From Salinicola acroporae (lineage in GTDB: Bacteria; Pseudomonadota; Gammaproteobacteria; Pseudomonadales; Halomonadaceae), in assembly GCF_003206615.1 (NCBI RefSeq), contig NZ_PZJW01000010.1, positions 77,009 through 141,008 of the forward strand: a stretch of 64,000 bases of DNA, in the 5' to 3' direction. A program made the position numbers and the translations under genes. The notes under the pieces are model-generated. The model saw nothing but the letters and a program-made list of their open reading frames with translations. It did no database searches and was not told where the DNA came from. Shown here in pieces: positions 181 through 11,050 of the stretch (positions within the stretch are counted from its first letter, which is position 1; every line of letters begins with the position of its first letter).

Positions 181-2931
181 TCAGGTTGTCTCGCCAGCGG
201 CATCGGCGACATCCGTGTCCTCGAGTAGATCCTGCAACGTTCTGATGGCGGTCTCGCTGTCGCTCTCCATCACGCCATCGAGCCAGATCATTGCCTGCTG
301 TTGATCGACGAACTCCACGCCTCGCGCCTGGAGGTAGGCCTGGGCCAGCGACACGCGGGCGGATCGGTGTCCCTGGCGTGCCGCATCGACCAGCAGTCGG
401 GCGCCCTTGTGGGTATCGCGCGGCAATACCTCGCCACTGAGATAGGCGCGACCGAGCGCTGCCTCGGCACCGGCGTGGCCGGTGTCGGCCGCTGTCGTCA
501 GCAGCTGCCTGCCGCGTGCCACGTCCTGGGCGATACCGCCTTGCCCCTCGAGATAAGCGGCGCCGAGCGCGGCTTTCGCAGAAACGTTGCCGTTGTCGGA
601 GGCGCGGGATAGCCACTCGATGGCCTGCGCCGAATCCTGACCGACGCCATTGCCCTCCAGATAGGCCTGTCCCAGGACACGCTGGGCGTTATCGTCGCCG
701 CGTTGCGCCGCGTGCTCCAGATAGCGCACGCCCTTGGCGGGGTCGGCGGCGACACCGGTGCCGTTCAGGTAGGCTTCTCCGAGGGTCACGCCGGCGGAGC
801 CGTGGCCGGCGTTGGCGGCCCGGGTCAGCAGCCTGATGCCGCGTCGTGGATCGGCGGTGACGCCGTCGCCGGTCAGCAGCATCTTGCCCAGGTCGGCTTC
901 GGCGCCGACATGGCCGGCGGCAATCGCACGTTCGAAATAGTTGGCGGCGCGCGCCTTGTCGACGCCGACCCCGAGACCGTCGGCATACATTCGGCCGAGT
1001 GAGGCGGTGGCGCCGGGATGGCCTTCGTCGGCGGCGTGTAACAACCATTTCTTGGCGCTGGCGTAATCGGCGCGAACGCCTTGACCACCAAGATAGGCGC
1101 GACCCAGGTCCGCCATGGCCGGCACCTGGCCCATCCGGGCGGCGCGAATCAGGTCATCGATGTTGCCCTGCTCGCCACTGGCGCGATAGGTGCGCGCCAG
1201 CGCCTGCTCAGCTGAAGGGTGGCCGGCGCGGGCGGCACGTTGCAGCCAGCGTTCGGCGCGATTCAGGTCCGGTGGCACACCGACCCCGTCACGGTAGGCG
1301 CGGCCGAGCACGACCATGGCGTAGGCGTCGCCCTGATCGGCGGCTTGCTCCAGCAGTCCGGCGCCCTGTTGACCCCTGCCGGGCAGCTTGCCCTCGAGGA
1401 TGCCCTGACCGAGCCGGGTCTTGGCGGTGGTATCGTCGGGGTCCTGCTCGACGGCTCGGTGCAGCCACCGCTGCGCCCTGGCTGGATCGCGCTGGACTTC
1501 CTCACCGTCCAGGTAGGCGATCCCCAGGGTACGGGCGGCACCGCTCTGATCCTGATCGGCCGCCTCGGTCAGTAGCGAGACGCCGCGTTGCGGGTCGGCC
1601 GGCGTGCCCTCGCCTTCGAGGTAGGCTTGGCCTAGGCGCGCCGTGGCGTAGGGATGCCCCAGTTCGTGGGCACGTTCGAGATATTCGATGCCCTGTCTCG
1701 GCTGAGCCCGGAGCCGATCTCCCTCGAGATAGAGATTTCCCAACAGCGCGAGGGCGTAGGCGTCGTCGTGCTGTGCCGCCCGCTTCAGCAGCGCGATACC
1801 ACGCTGGTGATCGGGCGGCAGGATGTCTCCCGTCACATAGGCCTGGCCCAGCGTGCGGGCGGCATCGAGCTGGCCCTGCTCGGCGGCGTCCGACAGCCAC
1901 TTTTCGGCGAGACCCGGATTGGGCTCGATCTGGTCTTGGCCCAGATAGGCCTGGCCCAGCCAGTAGGCAGCGTCCACATTGCCGGACTCCGCCGCACGCC
2001 GGAGCATATCGAGGCCTTGGGCAGGATCCTGATGCATCACCAGCAGATGGCCGGCGGCCGCCAGCGCCTGCGGGTCACCGCTGTCGGCGGCACGGATCAG
2101 CCACTGCTGCTGGCGTGCTGGCTGGGGCAGCGGACCGTCTTCGGCATAGACTCGCGACAGCGCCAGCATCGCGCCAACGTCGCCGCTCTTGGCGCGCGGC
2201 GTCATCACCTGGGCGTAGCGTTCGGCGTAGGCCCGCGACTGGCTCGGGTTGCTATCGAAAGCCCCGCCCGGCGCGTAGTTCTCGGCCAGGGCCTGGAGCG
2301 CACGGGGTTCATTCTGCGCCGCTGCCTGTTCCAACTGGCGGCGCGCTCCGTCGACGTCACGCGTGACGCCTTCTCCGGCCAGCTGCATTTCGGCGATCTC
2401 GATGCGCGCACTGGGATTGTCATCGTGGGCGATCGCCTGTTGAAACAGGTTCCACGCCAGGGCGGGGTCCTTCTTGACTCCGTCGCCGGCGCGATAGAGC
2501 CGGCCCAGTTTCAAAGAGGCGTTGTCGAGGCCGCTGAATTCGTAGGGAACGGCCTGGCGATAGTAGTGTGCCGCCATCGCCGGATCCCGGGGTACGCCGG
2601 TCGCGTCGTCGTAGATTCTAGCGAGCTCGTAGCTGGCCTCGGGATGGGTGACCGCCATCGGCTTGAGCAGCGCGATGGCCTCGAGGCTCTGTCCCTGGGC
2701 TTCGAGGCTGCGAATGTACTCCACCCGGTTCCAGTCGGTGGAGGGCATCGACTCGATGTAGTGATGGGCGAACAGCTCCTGGTCCTGGGCTGCGATCGGT
2801 TGCGTCTGGGCTGGTTGCTGGTTTGCACAGGCGGTCAGCATTACCACCGATGCCAGGCCCAGCATGAAACGACTGCTGGAGCGGCGCGTCGTTGCAAGTA
2901 AATGCCTCGCGTTGGGAGTCGATATCGTCAT
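181..2931 (-). CDS. AlgK-like outer-membrane lipoprotein with Sel1/TPR repeats (double length)
   Basis: Predicted periplasmic scaffold for export of an alginate-like polymer. I chose the ATG at 2931 because AAGGAG lies just upstream; the longer frame from 2988 lacks this. The 916-residue product opens with a basic, hydrophobic signal and a lipobox (Leu-Thr-Ala-Cys, Cys35). Almost all the rest is Sel1-like repeats of about 36 residues with recurring 'A..LG..Y..G.GV..D...A..W...AA..G' patterns. AlgK of Pseudomonas has the same design in roughly half the length (about 475 residues), so this protein has about twice as many repeats. It is the last complete gene of the operon in this window, 105 bases after the PL5 lyase gene. 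The repeat class is certain; the AlgK assignment rests on the alg8/alg44 context. Confidence 0.82.
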   Translation of the reverse strand: MTISTPNARHLLATTRRSSSRFMLGLASVVMLTACANQQPAQTQPIAAQDQELFAHHYIESMPSTDWNRVEYIRSLEAQGQSLEAIALLKPMAVTHPEASYELARIYDDATGVPRDPAMAAHYYRQAVPYEFSGLDNASLKLGRLYRAGDGVKKDPALAWNLFQQAIAHDDNPSARIEIAEMQLAGEGVTRDVDGARRQLEQAAAQNEPRALQALAENYAPGGAFDSNPSQSRAYAERYAQVMTPRAKSGDVGAMLALSRVYAEDGPLPQPARQQQWLIRAADSGDPQALAAAGHLLVMHQDPAQGLDMLRRAAESGNVDAAYWLGQAYLGQDQIEPNPGLAEKWLSDAAEQGQLDAARTLGQAYVTGDILPPDHQRGIALLKRAAQHDDAYALALLGNLYLEGDRLRAQPRQGIEYLERAHELGHPYATARLGQAYLEGEGTPADPQRGVSLLTEAADQDQSGAARTLGIAYLDGEEVQRDPARAQRWLHRAVEQDPDDTTAKTRLGQGILEGKLPGRGQQGAGLLEQAADQGDAYAMVVLGRAYRDGVGVPPDLNRAERWLQRAARAGHPSAEQALARTYRASGEQGNIDDLIRAARMGQVPAMADLGRAYLGGQGVRADYASAKKWLLHAADEGHPGATASLGRMYADGLGVGVDKARAANYFERAIAAGHVGAEADLGKMLLTGDGVTADPRRGIRLLTRAANAGHGSAGVTLGEAYLNGTGVAADPAKGVRYLEHAAQRGDDNAQRVLGQAYLEGNGVGQDSAQAIEWLSRASDNGNVSAKAALGAAYLEGQGGIAQDVARGRQLLTTAADTGHAGAEAALGRAYLSGEVLPRDTHKGARLLVDAARQGHRSARVSLAQAYLQARGVEFVDQQQAMIWLDGVMESDSETAIRTLQDLLEDTDVADAAGETT

Positions 2932-3036
2932 GTGCTTTATCTCCTTCTGGTCCGGCCTCCGTCCCTGGAGTGGGCCGGGAATCGGCATGGTTCGAGTCCG
3001 GAGCTCGAATGCGGATGTCGGGGGTTGACGGCGGTG

Positions 3037-4323
3037 TCAAGCGTCGGGCTCGAAGGCGGCAAGTTCCGTCCGGTCGGGTTCCGGCAATGCGCGAGACTGG
3101 GCCTGCGGATCCATGAAATAGAAGGTGACGTAGCCGCCGGCACTGCGGTTGTCGACGGGCCGCTTCTGGCTGACGTAGTGGGCGACTCTGTCGTCGTCGT
3201 GGTGCCTGAGATAGATCTCCATCCAGGCGAGATACTGCTCGTCGTCGAGGAAGCCGTAGTACTGTGCGTGGGTTGCCAGGTCCCCCAGTGCCGCCGGGTC
3301 GTCGAACGTATCCAGGGCGAACTGGACGGCGTCGTCGATGGTGTGGCCGTGGTATTCGAAGTCGAAGAGGTCGTAACCCTGGCGATAGGCGACCTGCATG
3401 ATGTTGACCAGATAGAGCAGGGCGTAGTTCTGGTAGTGGCTGGCGCGGCGGCCGCGAGCCATCTCGTGGGGCAAGGCGCCACGCGGGGTCAGATCGTTGA
3501 GCGCTGAGTAGACTGCACTGACGCCGAACTGGAACAGCTCGTCGTCGTTCGTCAGCACGCCGATCATGCTGGCGTAGAGCGCGCGACGATAGAAATGGTT
3601 GTTGCAACAGCTCGGATCCCCGCCACGGATGGAAGCATGCTTATGGGCCAGGGTGTTGAGCCAATGGTTGATACGCGCGATCGCCTCCGGGCGCCTGTCG
3701 GCGACCGCCGGACGCACGATCGAGTAGGCGAGCGCGGCGGCAAACATCATCGATTCGGTCGAGTACCAGCCCTGAGGCTCCAGGCGATCGTAGTAGAACT
3801 GGCTCAGCGCATCGTGAGTCGCCCACTTGTCCAGGAACTGAACCAGGCAATCGGCGTAGTAATCGTCACCGGAGGCGACGTACGAGCCGGCCAGATTGGA
3901 GACGGTATCCTCGAAGTCGAACAGCGGCTCGGAGGCCAGCTCCCACGCCTTGGGCTGCGGATAGTAGCCTGGGATCCGGATGACGCTGTCCAGCGCCGGC
4001 TTGGCGAGTTCCTGACGACAGCTCGGACCCTGCTCGAGTTGATCCCGGTTGTACTGCAGCAGGTCGTTGTCGGTGCGCTGCAGCAAGGCCATGCGTGCCT
4101 TGACGTCGAAATAGGACGCATCCGGATCGGTGACCGTGTACTCGGACAGATCCAGCCTCTGGCGCTGGGCGAAGCTCATCGTCTTGTCCGCCCCGGCGAC
4201 CCGGTCCGTCGCCGTCGGGTCGGCCGCCTGCGCCGACAGGATCGGACCTAGGGTCGCCAGACCCAGGACGAGAACGAGACTGTGACGCAGGCCGAATCGG
4301 CGTGAGATTGGCATCCGGTTCAT
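3037..4323 (-). CDS. PL5/AlgL-type polyuronate lyase, secreted
   Basis: Predicted beta-eliminating lyase of the alginate lyase (alpha/alpha barrel, PL5) type, acting in the periplasm on the polymer made by this operon. The ATG at 4323 has AGGGAG nine bases upstream; the longer frame does not. The 428-residue protein starts with a signal peptide ending near Ala-Gln-Ala-Ala (about residue 34). Motifs expected for AlgL-type lyases are visible: Asn241-Asn242-His243, the Gly-Arg-Arg-Ala-Ser stretch (291-295) and Tyr297 in His-Tyr-Gln-Asn-Tyr. AlgL clears misfolded or periplasm-trapped alginate in Pseudomonas. Some PL5 enzymes also accept polyglucuronate, which matters because this operon has a UDP-glucose dehydrogenase. 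It follows the PL14 gene after 29 bases. Confidence 0.82.
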   Translation of the reverse strand: MNRMPISRRFGLRHSLVLVLGLATLGPILSAQAADPTATDRVAGADKTMSFAQRQRLDLSEYTVTDPDASYFDVKARMALLQRTDNDLLQYNRDQLEQGPSCRQELAKPALDSVIRIPGYYPQPKAWELASEPLFDFEDTVSNLAGSYVASGDDYYADCLVQFLDKWATHDALSQFYYDRLEPQGWYSTESMMFAAALAYSIVRPAVADRRPEAIARINHWLNTLAHKHASIRGGDPSCCNNHFYRRALYASMIGVLTNDDELFQFGVSAVYSALNDLTPRGALPHEMARGRRASHYQNYALLYLVNIMQVAYRQGYDLFDFEYHGHTIDDAVQFALDTFDDPAALGDLATHAQYYGFLDDEQYLAWMEIYLRHHDDDRVAHYVSQKRPVDNRSAGGYVTFYFMDPQAQSRALPEPDRTELAAFEPDA

Positions 4324-4352
4324 GAGAATCGACTCCCTGTCGATAGGATGAA

Positions 4353-5249
4353 TCACCCCTTCGGGGTCATCAGCGTGAAATCGGCGAAATCGACGGTCTG
4401 GTTCCGCGGCGTACGCCAATCGCTGCCGTGGCCGCCGAAGAAGGTCGAGAACATCAGCCCGTCGATATGCACGTCATCCGTGGTGCGATAGACGATGTGC
4501 TGCTGTTCCAGTGTCGGCTGGCCGTCGATCCAGACTCGCGCAATGCCGTTCTCCCGCTCGGGGTCGTTGAGCACGATCTCCTCCTCGACGGTGACCCACT
4601 GTCCCGGCGTGAAGTGCCAGCGACCCCGGCCCACCGATTCGCCGTAGTCGGAGTCCTTGTTGACGACATACTCGTAGAGTTCGCCCTGTCCTTGCTCGCG
4701 CCACATGAAGCGCATCGAGAAGCCGTTCTTGCCGGTGACTTCGTCGCCGCCGGTAGGGCCATCGCCGCCGTACAGCCCCGGCAGCTTGCCACCCTTGACG
4801 AAATCGAAGCCGGCCGGGAAACGCACCCGGAAGCGCAGGCAGGCGCGATCGGCCTGGCGCAGCGCCGGCACCGGCACCACGAAACCGGCGCCGCCCTCTT
4901 CAGCGTCGCTGGGCGACGATGTGCCCGCGGGGTAGCTGACGCGCAGGGCAGGGCTGCCAAGACCGCTTTCGTTGCTGTCCAGGACCTGCAGGTTCTGCTC
5001 GCCCCAGCGACGCTGGCCGGCCAGGTCGTCCTTGACCCAGGCTTTGGGGTCACCATGGTCATTCATCGCCAGGGTCTGCACCGGTGCGTAGCGGGATGAG
5101 CAGGCGCTGACCTGCGGCTGGGTGAGCGAGTGGCCGCTGGCCGCCTGGGCAGGCAGCGAAGCCAGTGTCAATGCGCCCGCGACCAGAATCGCCGAACCCA
5201 GCGGGCGTAGCCGGCGAGGTTGGCTATTGTCGAGCTTGGCTGAAATCAT
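4353..5249 (-). CDS. PL14-family polyuronate lyase, secreted
   Basis: Predicted polysaccharide lyase of family 14 (beta-jelly-roll), a family known to cleave alginate and beta-1,4-glucuronan. The 298-residue protein has a signal peptide of about 36 residues (Leu-Pro-Ala-Gln-Ala-Ala). The family pattern is intact: Lys155 in Gly-Gly-Lys-Leu-Pro-Gly, Ser178-x-Arg180, and Tyr192-x-Tyr194, with spacing that matches the catalytic Lys/Ser/Arg/Tyr/Tyr set I recall for the Chlorella virus enzyme vAL-1. Phe-Ser-Thr-Phe-Phe-Gly-Gly-His near the C-terminus is also typical. AAGGAG precedes the start. It lies between the alg44-like gene and the PL5 gene, so the operon codes for two lyases of unrelated folds. 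Confidence 0.85.
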   Translation of the reverse strand: MISAKLDNSQPRRLRPLGSAILVAGALTLASLPAQAASGHSLTQPQVSACSSRYAPVQTLAMNDHGDPKAWVKDDLAGQRRWGEQNLQVLDSNESGLGSPALRVSYPAGTSSPSDAEEGGAGFVVPVPALRQADRACLRFRVRFPAGFDFVKGGKLPGLYGGDGPTGGDEVTGKNGFSMRFMWREQGQGELYEYVVNKDSDYGESVGRGRWHFTPGQWVTVEEEIVLNDPERENGIARVWIDGQPTLEQQHIVYRTTDDVHIDGLMFSTFFGGHGSDWRTPRNQTVDFADFTLMTPKG

Positions 5250-5314
5250 GTTGGTCTCCTTGGCGGTGATGGCGCTTCGGGAATGGCTTGGTGATGTCCG
5301 CGTTCATTGCACGA

Positions 5315-6754
5315 TCAGTTCATGGCGCTCTTCATGCTGTCGGTGGCGCGGCCCCACAGTGACTGAACGCCCTGAGCCATGGCACGGCCGGCCTGGTAGG
5401 TCCATTCGGCAGCGGTGTCGAGCATCGGCGCATCGGTGAAGCGCACGTCGACCGGGGTGCCGACAGTACTGGCCGGTAGCGGCGACTCCGGCACCAGCAG
5501 CACGCTGGCCACGTTCTGCTGTTGTCGCACCCAGTCGGGGAAGCCGGCGCGCGGTTGACGCTCGACATCGAGGGCGACGCTGCGTACGCGAGCAGGGATC
5601 GGCTCCGAGGCGTTGGGGAGGGCGATGTAGGCCTTCTGGTGGTTCTCGATATCGCCGATGTCGTCCATATGCACCAGCGCCTCGACCATCACGTCGTTGT
5701 TACGGGTGCTGACCAGTGTCATGACGCGATCGCCCTCGTTGACGTAGGTACCGCCGGCGGCGCTGAGCGCCCAGGCAACTTCGCAGTCGCAGGGGCTGTA
5801 GATGGTGTTGGCCGCGACCCGCGCCTTGTAGGCATCGATACGCGAACTCTCGTAGTCCCGGGCCGTTTCGAACTGCTCGACCCGGGTCTTGGCAATTTCC
5901 GGTGACAGGGTTTCAAAACCCAGTTCGCCGTTGGCGGGATTGGAGGAGGTGGCCACGCTGACCTTGCTGTTGCTGGCATCATCGAGGCTCTGCTGCAGGT
6001 TGTCGATCAGGCGCTTGTTGTAGTCGAACGAGGCCTGAGAGAGCAGCAGGTCGTTCTGCAGCTCGGCGTTGTTGACGTCGATCAGTGGCTGGTCGCGTTC
6101 GACCTTGTCACCGGCCTTGAGATCGAGATCCTTCAACTGGCCGGCGCCGGGGGCGAGGATGTCGGTGCGCGGTGCCGTCACCGCAGCGAAGCTCGGCTCG
6201 ATCAGGAAAACGTTGCGATAGATGGTCGCGGCGACGGCTGCCGTCAGCACGCCGGCGGCGACCAGCAGGGCCAGATAGCGGAACATAGGCACCCGGCGCT
6301 TGGGCCGGGTGGCCGGCGTCGCCACGTTGCTCCGGCGCTTGCGCGGCGTCTGGGCGTCCTGCGGGTCGATCAGGCCGTCGAGGCTGACATGACGGCCACT
6401 CATCTGGGCTCGAATTACCCGGCGCAGGATATCCCGCTGGCGGGATTCCATCCGGGTGAACTCAAAGGCGATGATTTGAGGACGATCTGCGCCGACTTCC
6501 CGCATTGGACGCGCCGTGGCGGAAAGCGCCAGTTCTACGCCGCTGGCGGTCAGCATCAGCGCCACGGGAATCTCGCGATGTCGCTCGAGTGGCATCGAGG
6601 TCTCCGCCGAGAAGCCGCCCATCGAGAGGTCGTGGCCCCTGGCCACATGGCCGTCGCCCAGACGCACATCGAAGGGCATCTCGACGCGAACGTGGCGGCG
6701 TTCGTCCCGGCGCTCGTGACGTAATTGGTCCGTGTCGTTGTGTTGATCTGACAT
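5315..6754 (-). CDS. alg44: Alg44-like c-di-GMP receptor and co-polymerase (PilZ-TM-HlyD)
   Basis: Inner-membrane partner of the synthase. Residues about 13-120 form a PilZ domain with the c-di-GMP motifs RxxxR (Arg16-Arg20) and Asp42-x-Ser-x-x-Gly47. One membrane segment follows (about 158-179), then a periplasmic HlyD/membrane-fusion region with a coiled-coil hairpin. In Pseudomonas alginate synthesis, c-di-GMP binding to Alg44 switches on the Alg8 polymerase; the same job is inferred here. At 479 residues it is longer than Pseudomonas Alg44 (about 389). The gene starts 28 bases after the synthase gene, so the two are surely co-transcribed. Confidence 0.88.
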   Translation of the reverse strand: MSDQHNDTDQLRHERRDERRHVRVEMPFDVRLGDGHVARGHDLSMGGFSAETSMPLERHREIPVALMLTASGVELALSATARPMREVGADRPQIIAFEFTRMESRQRDILRRVIRAQMSGRHVSLDGLIDPQDAQTPRKRRSNVATPATRPKRRVPMFRYLALLVAAGVLTAAVAATIYRNVFLIEPSFAAVTAPRTDILAPGAGQLKDLDLKAGDKVERDQPLIDVNNAELQNDLLLSQASFDYNKRLIDNLQQSLDDASNSKVSVATSSNPANGELGFETLSPEIAKTRVEQFETARDYESSRIDAYKARVAANTIYSPCDCEVAWALSAAGGTYVNEGDRVMTLVSTRNNDVMVEALVHMDDIGDIENHQKAYIALPNASEPIPARVRSVALDVERQPRAGFPDWVRQQQNVASVLLVPESPLPASTVGTPVDVRFTDAPMLDTAAEWTYQAGRAMAQGVQSLWGRATDSMKSAMN

Positions 6755-6782
6755 GATGAAATCTCCTTGTCGAGTCCCTGAC

Positions 6783-8744
6783 TTACTGGCTGTTCCGGGC
6801 CAGCGCTTGTGTTTTCTCGTGGGCTTCGCCGAGCGCCAGTGACAGCTTCGTCAGGCGGATCTCGCGTCCGCCAACCTGGAGTCGGCAGGGCCGCTGTTCG
6901 TCACACTGGAATCGGCCCGCCTCGGCGAGCGTGGTGCCGCCGGCAATGATCTGGGGGGCGAGATCGTCGGCGATCTGTAGCGTGGTCGGAGCGTCGGGGT
7001 CGCCGTAACCCTGAAGGCTGGCGCCGCGCATCCTGTCCAGCGAAGCGACCTGCTCGTTGAAGCCGGTATCGATCCGAAAGTGACCCGCCGGCAACTGCAC
7101 GCTGCCGTCCTGCGGGGCATCGGCCAACGTCAGCGCGAGCCAGCGATTGTCGTGACCGTCGCCGTGGTCGGTGGCCTCCGGCTGGGCGCCGACCATCGCC
7201 GCTAACGAGAGTCGATCCGCCGGTGCCATGATCCCGCCGAAGACGGCCAGCACGAAGATCAGCGCGCCAAAGTAGAGCGTGTGGATGAGGTGGCCGCCGA
7301 GGCGCTGGCGGCGCGCGGCGCGAGGGTCCTCCGGCTCACCGGCCGAAATGCCCTGACGCGACCACTTCTGGCGATTGAAGCGAAAGCTGACGTAGGTCTT
7401 GAGAATCGCGCCGCTGAGCTGGTTGTAGTAGAGCATCGGCACCCATAGCGCGCTCCAGCGGCCACGCTGCCATGCCAGCACCAGGCTGGTGATGCAGCGG
7501 GTCATCAGGATCCAGAGCAGATAGGCGAAGATGAACGACGGGCGTACGAACAGGGTCAGCAGAACGGCAATGCATGGGCCGATCAGGGTGGTCCACATCG
7601 AGAGCCGCTGATCGACGAGGCTCCACCAGGTGTAGAAACCCATTCGCCGCGGTCCGAGCGCAATCGCGCGGCCATTGGTGCGCAGCATGTTGCCGAACCA
7701 GCGGCGCATCAGGTCGAGCGTCGACTTGAAGAAGCGCCGGCGATCCGGCAGTTCTTCGAAGCCGGTGACGGTGACATCCGGCAGATAGAGCATCTTCCAA
7801 CGATGCTTGAGCAGCCAGAACCAGGTCGACTTGTCGTCGCCGGAGAGGAACTTGAAGTTACCGAAGCGCCAGTGATCGACATGGTCGTTCTCGACCAGTT
7901 CGATGAATTCGGGCTGGGTGGCCAGGTCGGCGCGGAAGGCGCTGTATCGGCCCGTCAGCACCAGCAGCCGTTCCGAGACGGAGGTCGAGCTCATGACCAG
8001 GTGGCGCTGGGCGTAGCGCAGGTCGTACCACTCCTTGGTCGCGTCGTTACCGATCACCACGGCGTTGTTGTTGGTGGTGATCGCGCCCAGATCCTCTTTC
8101 GCCAGGAAGAACGATAGCGAGCGCGCCAAGGTTCCCGGCTCGATGCGAATGTCGCCGTCCATGCTCACCAGCAGCGAACGGTGCGTCGGCATGCAGCGCG
8201 AGATGGCGCGTAGCACCTCGGCCATGGCCGAGCGTTTGCCATCGCCTTTCTGGAACATGTAGCGGACGTTGATATTGTCCGGCCAGCCGTGTTCATCCAT
8301 CACCTGATCGATGATGTCGACATCGCTGCGATCGGCGATCGCGGCAAACAGCGTGGTCGGCACGCCGTAGTCGGCGGCATCGCGAACCAGGGCGTCGTAG
8401 ACGGCGAAAGTGACTTCGGTATCGATTCGGAAAGACGTGCACAGGATGTAGAGCGCGTCCGGTGCCTCGGTGGCACCGACGGCATCGGCCTGGGCTCGTA
8501 GCCGGGGAAACATGCGGCGGTTGTACCAGACCGAACGGATCGCCTGGACGAACCACCATGAGTAGCGCCAGGCACCGATCAGGCCCACGGCGAAGATGAA
8601 GCTCTTCGAACCGGGATGGAAGACCTCGCCCGGCAGATGCGTTACCAGCAGCAGGACCAGTGTCGCGAGCAGCAGCATGACCGTGATTTCGGTTGCCACC
8701 GACGCCTTGCTGGGTCTGGCTCGGGTGTAGTTGATATCGCTCAT
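6783..8744 (-). CDS. alg8: Alg8-like family 2 glycosyltransferase (uronan synthase) with C-terminal extension
   Basis: Processive inner-membrane polymerase, predicted to use a nucleotide-uronate donor. The 653-residue protein has two N-terminal membrane helices (about 17-35 and 47-65). A cytosolic GT2 core follows, with Asp-Gly-Asp (196-198), Ser-Gly-Asp-Asp (301-304) and an Arg-Arg-Trp element (348-350). Further membrane helices lie at about 372-425 and 485-505. Pseudomonas Alg8 ends near 494 residues; here about 145 extra residues follow the last helix and look globular. The donor is uncertain: alginate synthases use GDP-mannuronate, but the neighbouring gene makes UDP-glucuronate. The next gene, alg44-like, is 28 bases downstream. 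Confidence 0.87.
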   Translation of the reverse strand: MSDINYTRARPSKASVATEITVMLLLATLVLLLVTHLPGEVFHPGSKSFIFAVGLIGAWRYSWWFVQAIRSVWYNRRMFPRLRAQADAVGATEAPDALYILCTSFRIDTEVTFAVYDALVRDAADYGVPTTLFAAIADRSDVDIIDQVMDEHGWPDNINVRYMFQKGDGKRSAMAEVLRAISRCMPTHRSLLVSMDGDIRIEPGTLARSLSFFLAKEDLGAITTNNNAVVIGNDATKEWYDLRYAQRHLVMSSTSVSERLLVLTGRYSAFRADLATQPEFIELVENDHVDHWRFGNFKFLSGDDKSTWFWLLKHRWKMLYLPDVTVTGFEELPDRRRFFKSTLDLMRRWFGNMLRTNGRAIALGPRRMGFYTWWSLVDQRLSMWTTLIGPCIAVLLTLFVRPSFIFAYLLWILMTRCITSLVLAWQRGRWSALWVPMLYYNQLSGAILKTYVSFRFNRQKWSRQGISAGEPEDPRAARRQRLGGHLIHTLYFGALIFVLAVFGGIMAPADRLSLAAMVGAQPEATDHGDGHDNRWLALTLADAPQDGSVQLPAGHFRIDTGFNEQVASLDRMRGASLQGYGDPDAPTTLQIADDLAPQIIAGGTTLAEAGRFQCDEQRPCRLQVGGREIRLTKLSLALGEAHEKTQALARNSQ

Positions 8745-8907
8745 CGGGATGTCCCTGAAATCTTCTTCTGGGGTCGCTTACGACGCGACGTTGCGGCGTC
8801 ATTCATCGACCCGGTCCCTTGCTCGTGACCACCGAGTCCTCATGGCAGACACGACGTTCCCGCGATCGACGCGGTGGCGCCGATCGAGATCGTGATCGAA
8901 AGGGGAG

Positions 8908-8928
8908 GTCGGCGGACCTGCCGCCGAC
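8908..8928 (-). terminator. hairpin between ugd and the synthase gene
   Basis: An 8-bp perfect stem (GTCGGCGG/CCGCCGAC) with a 5-base loop lies 12 bases past the ugd stop, followed on the minus strand by CTCCCCTTT. The T tract is short, so it could be a weak terminator, an RNA-processing stop or a 3'-end stabiliser separating ugd levels from the synthase genes. Confidence 0.4.
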
Positions 8929-8939
8929 GAGGCCGGGGG

Positions 8940-10349
8940 TTACAACGTGTAGGCGACGCTGGGACCGTTCTGCCCGACCCGGGCCTGCGGGGCGCCGTCG
9001 CCGCCGGGGAGCGGGATGCGCAGCGAGTCGGCACGACCTACCGCGAAATAGAGCAGGCCCGCGGCACGCACGCTCTCCGGGTTGAACAGGTTGCGCCCAT
9101 CAATGATCGCCGGGGTAGTGAGCTGCTCGCGCAGGCGCCGGAAATCGACCGTACGGAAGGCCTTCCATTCGGTGCAGATGACCAGCGCGTCGGCACCTTC
9201 CAGGGTGTCGTCGCGGCGCTTCGTCAGTGTCAGGTCGTCGCGCTCGCCGTAGAGGCGTCGGCACTCCTGCATCGCTTCCGGATCATAGGCCCGGACCTTG
9301 CCGCCGGCGGCCCAAATGGCTTCCATCAGCTCGCGGCTCGGCGCTTCGCGCATGTCGTCGGTATTGGGCTTGAAGGCGAGACCCCACACCGCGATGGTCT
9401 TGGCCTCCAGGTCGCCGTCGAGGGCCTGGGAAAGCTTGGTGAACAGGCTCGCCTTCTGGCGATAGTTGACCGACTCGACGGCGTTGAGTAGTTGAGCTTC
9501 GTAACCGACATCGGTGGCGGTGCGCGCCAACGCCTGCACGTCTTTCGGGAAGCAGGAACCGCCGTAGCCGCAGCCGGGATAGATGAAGCTGTAGCCGATG
9601 CGCGGATCGCTGCCGATGCCGCGACGTACGTTCTCGACATCGGCGCCGAGCCGTTCGGCCAGATTCGAGATCTCGTTCATGAAGCTGATCTTGGTCGCCA
9701 GCATGGCGTTGGCGGCGTACTTGGTCAGCTCGGCGCTGCGGATGTCCATGAACATCAGCTTTTCCTGGCGCCGGTTGTAGGGGGCGTAACATTCACGCAT
9801 CAGCGGTTCGACGCGAGACGAGTCGCAGCCGATGACGATGCGAGCGCCCTGGGAGAAATCCTCGACGGCCGAGCCCTCCTTGAGGAACTCCGGGTTGGAG
9901 CAGACGTCGAACGGGATATCGACGTCACGCTGATGGAGACGCTGGGCAATGGTCTCGGAGACGCGATCCGCCGTGCCTACCGGCACCGTGGACTTGTCGA
10001 TGACCAGCTTGTACTCCTGCATGTGCTCGGCGATGGTGTCGGCCACGCTGAGTACGTACTTGAGGTCGGCGCTGCCATCCTCGTCTGGCGGCGTTCCCAC
10101 GGCGATGAACTGCAGGGTGCCGAAACCGACGGCCTCGGCCGGGTCGGCGGTGAACAGCAAACGCTCCTCGGCGACATTCTGCTTGACCAGTGCTTCCAGG
10201 CCCGGTTCGTAGATCGGCACGATGCCGTTCATCAACCCGTTGATCTTGCGGCTGTCGACGTCCATGCACATGACTTCGTGACCGGCCTCGGCGAGGCAGG
10301 TTCCGGTGACGAGTCCGACATATCCCGTTCCAAAAATGGTGATCCGCAC
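8940..10349 (-). CDS. ugd: UDP-glucose 6-dehydrogenase
   Basis: Oxidises UDP-glucose to UDP-glucuronate with two NAD+. I chose the GTG at 10349, just before Arg-Ile-Thr-Ile-Phe-Gly, because AAGGAG lies close upstream; the longer frame from 10598 has 83 unrelated residues. The 469-residue protein shows the N-terminal Rossmann motif (Gly-x-Gly-Tyr-Val-Gly), Asn-Pro-Glu-Phe-Leu-Lys-Glu-Gly and the catalytic Cys266 in Tyr-Gly-Gly-Ser-Cys-Phe-Pro-Lys-Asp. These fit Ugd rather than AlgD (GDP-mannose dehydrogenase), which typically has Phe-Gly-Gly-Ser-Cys-Leu and Asn-Pro-Glu-Phe-Leu-Arg-Glu-Ser. It is the first gene of the polysaccharide operon, 195 bases ahead of the synthase gene. Confidence 0.93.
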
Positions 10350-10997
10350 GATGGCTCTCCTTGCTGGTTCGTGTCGTGATGCATTCTGTTTCAACGGCGT
10401 CAACCTGTCTCCGAGGGGGCAGGATTCCAGGGCCGACGACCCTGTTATCACATCCTCCAACGGTAGCGACCGGTTTACAGCCGATGACAAACAGCGTTTC
10501 CGAAAGTCGGGACAACGGTAGGTGCAAAGCTTACTTAGGTCCAATTCAGGAAATGCTGATGTAAGCGAGCGTGCGATATTTGTGTCGTCGTATTGCACAG
10601 GGCGTAGCCGATAGCGGACGCCGGGTGTCGCCGTATGGGGACGTGCCAGGCAAGCAAAACAGCCCTTTATGTAAATATATTTTTCTGAAGAGGTTCCTTG
10701 AGAACCAAGTGATTCTTTATTTTTCTTGTTGTTTCATTTTGTTTTTGCGTGATTTAACTACATGTTTTGGCTCTCGTGCCTGCCCCGCCGACATTCGGGG
10801 TGGTTGTCACCCATCGACGGTCGGAAGCCGTGATCCTTGGACAGTGAGATAGCCATGGCGAGGCCTTTGCCGCGGGTTCTCCAGCAGGTGCCGCGTCCCA
10901 AACCCGGGACACGCATGCCGATTGTTCGCCAGGGCATCCATATCGATGGGTCGCGATGGGGGTCGCCACCCGTTGTGGGTTCACAGCGTATGTAAAG
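10350..10997. promoter_or_regulatory. AT-rich leader region between the ugd operon and the SUF regulator
   Basis: No convincing gene lies here. About 10660-10765 is strikingly AT-rich compared with its surroundings. Inverted repeats seen: GCTTAC (10529-10534) with GTAAGC (10561-10566); GGTTC-N5-GAACC at 10692-10706; and GGGTG-N5-CACCC at 10798-10812. The ugd operon start at 10349 implies a long regulated 5' region reading leftward. I found no clear sigma-70 or sigma-54 promoter. The repeats are candidate operators only. Confidence 0.45.
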
Positions 10998-11014
10998 AGG
11001 ACTAAAATGGTCCT
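10998..11014 (+). promoter_or_regulatory. palindromic operator ahead of the SUF regulator (IscR type-I-like)
   Basis: AGGAC-N7-GTCCT, 37 bases before the regulator start. The core GACTAAAAT-x-GTC resembles the type I site bound by [2Fe-2S] IscR, and a TATATG hexamer abuts it on the right. Autoregulation by the Rrf2 protein encoded next is the simplest reading. Confidence 0.55.
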
Positions 11015-11050
11015 ATATGGCGGCTGTCAGGATCGAGAGGGCATCGGAAC

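Follow-up and report, generated by a model that had tools for sequence, protein, structure and literature searches.

A candidate polyglucuronate operon of the alginate type in Salinicola and other Halomonadaceae

In Pseudomonas and Azotobacter, the alginate operon has the gene order algD-alg8-44-KEGXLIJFA. In this report, we examine an operon found in 64,000 nucleotides (nt) of Salinicola acroporae DNA (contig NZ_PZJW01000010.1, positions 77,009 to 141,008; hereafter, “the window”). It shares with the alginate operon an Alg8-type synthase of glycosyltransferase family 2 (GT2), an Alg44-type partner with PilZ and HlyD parts, a repeat lipoprotein, and a lyase of polysaccharide lyase family 5 (PL5). 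It differs in carrying Ugd, a uridine diphosphate (UDP)-glucose 6-dehydrogenase, in place of AlgD, in having an extra PL14 lyase, and in the placement of its synthase in a separate clade; further, the locus contains no match to AlgA, AlgE, AlgG, AlgJ, AlgI or AlgF (AlgX had no query). The system appears to work like alginate synthesis, yet we do not file it as a canonical member, because AlgD was sought and not found. We consider it probable that this is an alginate-type, synthase-dependent exopolysaccharide operon whose synthase, gated by cyclic dimeric guanosine monophosphate (c-di-GMP), turns UDP-glucuronate into polyglucuronate.

Atypical alginate operons, which are alginate-like loci lacking algKE or the modification genes, are described from deep-sea bacteria in PMC7112194, whose main text contains “Halomonas”, “dehydrogenase” and “glucuron-” 0 times. 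The polymer proposed here would be beta-1,4-D-glucuronate, the glucuronan that Sinorhizobium meliloti M5N1CS and Peteryoungia rosettiformans also make; S. meliloti is known to have a glucuronan lyase. As of 2023, the genes behind glucuronan biosynthesis were described as unknown (PMC10180729). The “Alg8” and “alginate lyase precursor” of Halomonas smyrnensis AAD6 are very likely part of the operon described here (locus L075). PMC4523562 gives both as predicted genes in the context of alginate, and “UDP-glucose” and “glucuron” occur 0 times in its main text. Our literature search, which had most subscription papers outside its coverage, recognized no description of this operon. The structure model of the Salinicola synthase has a fold similar to that of class I hyaluronan synthases (Chlorella virus, Xenopus), at ~14% identity. 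Neither phmmer nor a profile search matched them in sequence at E<=0.01, and we know of no PilZ partner for these enzymes.

Composition and conservation of the operon

The six genes of the operon all lie on the - strand, with intergenic gaps of 195, 28, 65, 29 and 48 nt. The features are as follows.

8940..10349, - strand: Ugd, UDP-glucose 6-dehydrogenase, for UDP-glucuronate supply (Pfam, NCBIfam, PDB; GTG start with AGGAG upstream)
6783..8744, - strand: Alg8-like processive GT2 synthase, 653 amino acids (aa) (Pfam Glyco_tranf_2_3, alignment, tree, structure model)
6783..7163, - strand: beta-rich C-terminal extension of the synthase, ~residues 528-653 (structure model)
5315..6754, - strand: Alg44-like c-di-GMP receptor/membrane fusion protein, PilZ (RxxxR, DxSxxG) + HlyD (Pfam, motifs)
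4353..5249, - strand: PL14 polysaccharide lyase with a signal-like N-terminus (Pfam)
3037..4323, - strand: PL5 (AlgL-like) polysaccharide lyase, catalytic N-H, R and Y kept, signal-like N-terminus (Pfam, motifs)
181..2931, - strand: Sel1-repeat lipoprotein, lipobox LTAC, AlgK-like in position (Pfam)
10350..11050, no strand: intergenic stretch between the operon and the divergently oriented SUF regulator gene, taken to be the promoter region (sequence)

The Alg8-like and Alg44-like genes and the two lyases named in the initial annotation of this DNA are all borne out by Pfam, with PilZ and HlyD_3 in the Alg44-like protein, Polysacc_lyase_14 in PL14 (218 bits) and Alginate_lyase/PL5 in PL5 (134 bits). 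Its “AlgK-like” gene stands as regards repeat type (11 Sel1 stretches in Pfam), lipobox and position, and no further: the protein scores 140 bits against the NCBIfam AlgK model, which has a cut-off of 700. Key residues are kept as well. RxxxR and DxSxxG, which we take to be the c-di-GMP motif of PilZ, are retained in at least 95% of 50 Alg44-like rows, and the catalytic motifs of PL5 in at least 95% of 51 rows. The lipobox of the Sel1 protein and the signal-like N-termini of PL14 and PL5 were judged by eye.

Of 275 Halomonadaceae genomes, 89 encode the synthase (E<=1e-15). A collection of named genomes yielded 37 synthase loci, 36 from Halomonadaceae and one from the alphaproteobacterium Caenispirillum salinarum; Salinicola lusitanus CR50 is the nearest named relative found, with a synthase 95% identical to that of the window. 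Together with the window's own locus and five more, these made up a set of 43 loci, all with distinct synthases. The synthase, Alg44-like, PL14, PL5 and Sel1 genes are present in all 43, and the gene order of the window is exactly kept in 30. Because the order is conserved in relatives, chance is untenable as an account of the gene set. The other loci have a second PL5, PL14 or Sel1 gene, split frames (L061, L070, L072), or a Ugd gene elsewhere (L057) or none (L039). Two PL5 and two Sel1 genes occur together in L051, L052, L077 and L078 (three Modicisalibacter loci and one of Halomonas), and three genomes (G134, G206, G207) have two synthase copies each.

The operon is complete, although its left end had initially been thought to be cut by the edge of the window. 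The Sel1 stop codon lies at 181, and purA, convergent with the operon, stops 41 nt short of window base 1; this gene, named from its sequence, is the last one in the 19 kb of DNA preceding the window. The ATG at 2931 is preferred over 2988 as the start of the Sel1 gene for its better AGGAG upstream. On the right, the operon is followed by the divergent SUF regulator and then by suf genes, and Rfam gave no match in the intergenic region.

UDP-glucuronate supply and the alginate genes

The changing supply genes within one synthase clade are the strongest evidence for UDP-glucuronate as the donor. This donor is well supported, and we infer from the sequences that the synthase uses it. As first annotated, the sole sugar-nucleotide gene of the operon is of the Ugd type. 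Its product has three UDPG_MGDP_dh domains (Pfam) and scores 539 bits against the solved UDP-glucose dehydrogenase 2y0e versus 202 bits against the guanosine diphosphate (GDP)-mannose dehydrogenase 1mfz. With NCBIfam models it reaches 451 bits for TIGR03026, above the cut-off, and 495 bits for TuaD, below the cut-off of 700. The S. acroporae genome (4.37 Mb in 32 contigs, 99.99% complete) has six PF03721 matches: three strong and Ugd-like (211-224 bits), two that read as Trk/Ktr-type proteins, and one diverged relative of ~426 aa.

Ugd is found in 42 of the 43 loci. In Caenispirillum it sits elsewhere in the operon and is 42% identical to the window's Ugd; it groups with alphaproteobacterial genomic Ugds (support 99/98), whereas the synthase beside it nests among halomonad sequences. 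The Salinicola operon Ugd and a paralogue in the same genome form one group (95/91) apart from other halomonad operon Ugds, in a tree of 32 chosen rows with several weak forks. At another locus, L132, which has no AlgD, GalU (338 bits, cut-off 326.8) is directly upstream of the synthase gene, the Alg44-like and PL5 genes follow, and a Ugd-level gene lies ~20 kb away. L220 carries a tandem pair of Ugd genes of the Klebsiella/Streptococcus class; one is clear (517 bits with NCBIfam NF011631), the other diverged (255 bits), and both fall below the cut-off of 757. The first scores 490 bits against a solved UDP-glucose dehydrogenase versus 135 against GDP-mannose dehydrogenase. All of the supply genes adjoining this synthase clade lead to UDP-glucose or UDP-glucuronate, and none to GDP-mannuronate.

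An algD gene would have spoken against the initial annotation. None was found in the S. acroporae genome, and among 275 Halomonadaceae genomes a true AlgD query had 0 matches at E<=1e-75. In a control run on 19 genomes, five that possess AlgD scored 384-981 bits, versus at most 206 bits, the level of Ugd, in 12 Halomonadaceae and two alphaproteobacteria with this synthase clade; the best score of the S. acroporae genome was 190 bits. The absence of algG and of acetylation genes, likewise noted at the outset, is upheld within the limits of the searches. None of AlgD, AlgA, AlgG, AlgE, AlgI, AlgJ and AlgF is the best match of any frame in the 43 loci (at least 60 bits), and an AlgI-type MBOAT protein had no match in the S. 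acroporae genome, in a search that did detect its positive controls. For AlgJ and AlgF the negative result covers the 43 loci, as no genome-wide search for AlgJ, AlgF or AlgX was made. The AlgG query had 0 matches in the genome in a search lacking a positive control; the same query detects AlgG in alginate loci by blastp. As for AlgE, the genome has only a sub-threshold Alginate_exp porin (21.6 bits, cut-off 25.2), and such porins do not track the synthase (16/89 carriers versus 23/186 non-carriers). The porin-like protein with a sub-threshold Alginate_exp match at L079:1111-2529 (-) is encoded next to a gene whose sequence suggests a MATE-like transporter; it occurs in 39 of 275 genomes of the family and does not follow the synthase.

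The synthase clade and its residues

Comparison with Alg8, suggested by the initial annotation, sets the synthase apart. Its identity to the Alg8 proteins of AlgD loci (Gammaproteobacteria, Roseobacteraceae, Rhizobium), with which it shares the invariant motifs, is 36-41%. A first tree separated the Ugd-linked synthases with a support of 76 and placed that of L039, which was unlabelled, inside the same clade. In the final tree of 51 rows, all 21 synthases with N at alignment column 226 (N226) are divided from the 30 others by one branch (99/96). In 12 of 439 gap-free columns, 53 AlgD-linked synthases share no residue with 48 that are Ugd- or GalU-linked, and two of these columns are invariant on both sides. 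At column 226, E stands in 53/53 of the former and N in 48/48 of the latter; column 262 is T in the AlgD-linked and V in the Ugd- or GalU-linked proteins. The signature of the clade to which the window's synthase belongs is F164/S172/N226/V262. These candidate columns were fixed before 40 further loci were fetched, of which 38 proved to have E226 (34 of them with AlgD in the stretch) and two N226 (L220 and L198, neither with AlgD). Unlike the N226 Salinicola synthase, those of three Rhizobium plasmid loci (L099, L102, L104) have E226 and stand with AlgD. These plasmid loci also have an AlgG-like gene; in L099 and L102 its product is ~1250 aa, and the plasmid gene table shows no gene there.

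The structure model of the synthase has a predicted local distance difference test (pLDDT) score of 86, and its nearest solved folds are hyaluronan synthases and PcManGT. Only part of the family has the C-terminal extension, which has no clear known fold.

Several further loci are worthy of record. At L041, L144, L145, L147, L148 and L149, an Alg8-like synthase has E226 although AlgD is missing from the stretch, and several of these synthases lie beside PilZ/HlyD-like partners; those of L148 and L149 are long (~880-890 aa), and L145 has PL14 nearby. The N226-type synthase genes of L134 and L135 adjoin RND-efflux-like genes; neither a lyase gene nor a supply gene was seen beside them, and in L134 a gene for a HlyD-domain protein overlaps or adjoins that of the synthase. 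L198 has PL5 in its stretch.

Proposed mechanism, alternatives and meaning

In the mechanism that we propose, Ugd would oxidize UDP-glucose to UDP-glucuronate, and the membrane-bound GT2 synthase would polymerize the glucuronate and move the chain across the inner membrane, becoming active once c-di-GMP is bound by the PilZ domain of its Alg44-like partner. The HlyD part of that partner and the Sel1 lipoprotein may lead the chain over the periplasm, and PL5 and PL14 may trim or clear the polymer. The likeliest product would be beta-1,4-polyglucuronate (glucuronan), the C2 epimer of polymannuronate; its linkage and homopolymeric nature, the c-di-GMP gating and the export are all inferred from the genes. 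The initial suggestion of a glucuronan or mixed uronan gains support from the lack of AlgD, the separate synthase clade and the several genes for UDP-glucuronate supply. A PL5 enzyme, Smlt1473, cuts poly-beta-D-glucuronate at pH 7 (PMC8511899).

Some observations weigh against the synthesis of polyglucuronate. L039 lacks Ugd, and the stretches around four N226 synthases (L039, L134, L135, L198) contain no supply gene, although for L039 and L134 the same genome has Ugd-level genes at another place. E226 also occurs in ten loci with no AlgD in the stretch, and R164 fails as a strict mark of AlgD, being Q in 7/53 AlgD-linked synthases. The signature residues could reflect shared ancestry; because the N226 synthases are one clade, residues alone are inseparable from it. 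PL5 and PL14 are familiar chiefly as families that act on alginate, and among PDB entries PL5 scores highest with the mannuronan lyase A1-III, above Smlt1473. Finally, neither the locus frames nor a porin profile search revealed a dedicated outer-membrane pore.

Could the operon make ordinary alginate or mannuronan from GDP-mannuronate provided elsewhere, with Ugd a bystander? The resemblance of the synthase to Alg8 is in keeping with this, as is the classing of PL5 and PL14 as alginate lyase families (PMC9181867). We deem it very improbable, however, given that controlled searches detected no AlgD in the genome or in 275 genomes of the family, the presence of Ugd in nearly every locus and of a different Ugd in Caenispirillum, and the synthase differences at columns 226 and 262. 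A heteropolymer is less remote but still unlikely: the synthase could add glucuronate and another sugar, as in hyaluronan, or the polymer could later be epimerized. Hyaluronan synthases, which use UDP-glucuronate and UDP-N-acetylglucosamine, are among the nearest solved folds, and UDP-N-acetylglucosamine would need no dedicated gene. Further, the gene after PL5 in L132 (L132:13649-16012) encodes a beta-helix with RTX repeats, as secreted C5-epimerases have, and may specify a glucuronate C5-epimerase. On the other hand, the searches for AlgG, AlgA and AlgD described above were negative, and PL5 and the kinship to Alg8 point to a uronan homopolymer.

A variant of the polyglucuronate proposal concerns the fate of the chain. 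The same polymer might be kept in the periplasm, or freed as oligosaccharides by the two lyases, and serve as an anionic periplasmic glycan in halophiles. The failure to find AlgE, a porin that does not follow the synthase, and the signal-like N-termini of both lyases are compatible with this scheme. But the Sel1 lipoprotein in the AlgK position suggests outer-membrane delivery, an unrecognized porin could lie elsewhere, and ordinary alginate secretion likewise has its AlgL in the periplasm (PMC8829089); we find the variant doubtful.

Polyglucuronate synthesis, our preferred reading, can be extended to a bolder one, which we put forward only tentatively. The operon might be the first glucuronan system to be defined genetically, with a c-di-GMP-gated synthase class of its own that parted from the alginate enzymes through a handful of substitutions in the active site: E/N at 226, T/V at 262, and at 164 R or Q versus F. 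This class would have re-acquired its UDP-glucuronate supply several times and would lack an AlgE-type pore, and its polyanion, maybe periplasmic in halophiles, would be turned over by two lyases.

The operon offers a complete six-gene candidate for the glucuronan genes in culturable strains of Salinicola, Halomonas and Modicisalibacter. Its residue signature may separate synthases that use UDP-glucuronate from those that use GDP-mannuronate in cases where the name Alg8 may cover the two, and the two groups form a natural comparison for how such enzymes choose between C2-epimeric sugars. If polyglucuronate is indeed the product, some “alginate” annotations in halophiles would need revision, such as that of H. 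smyrnensis in PMC4523562.

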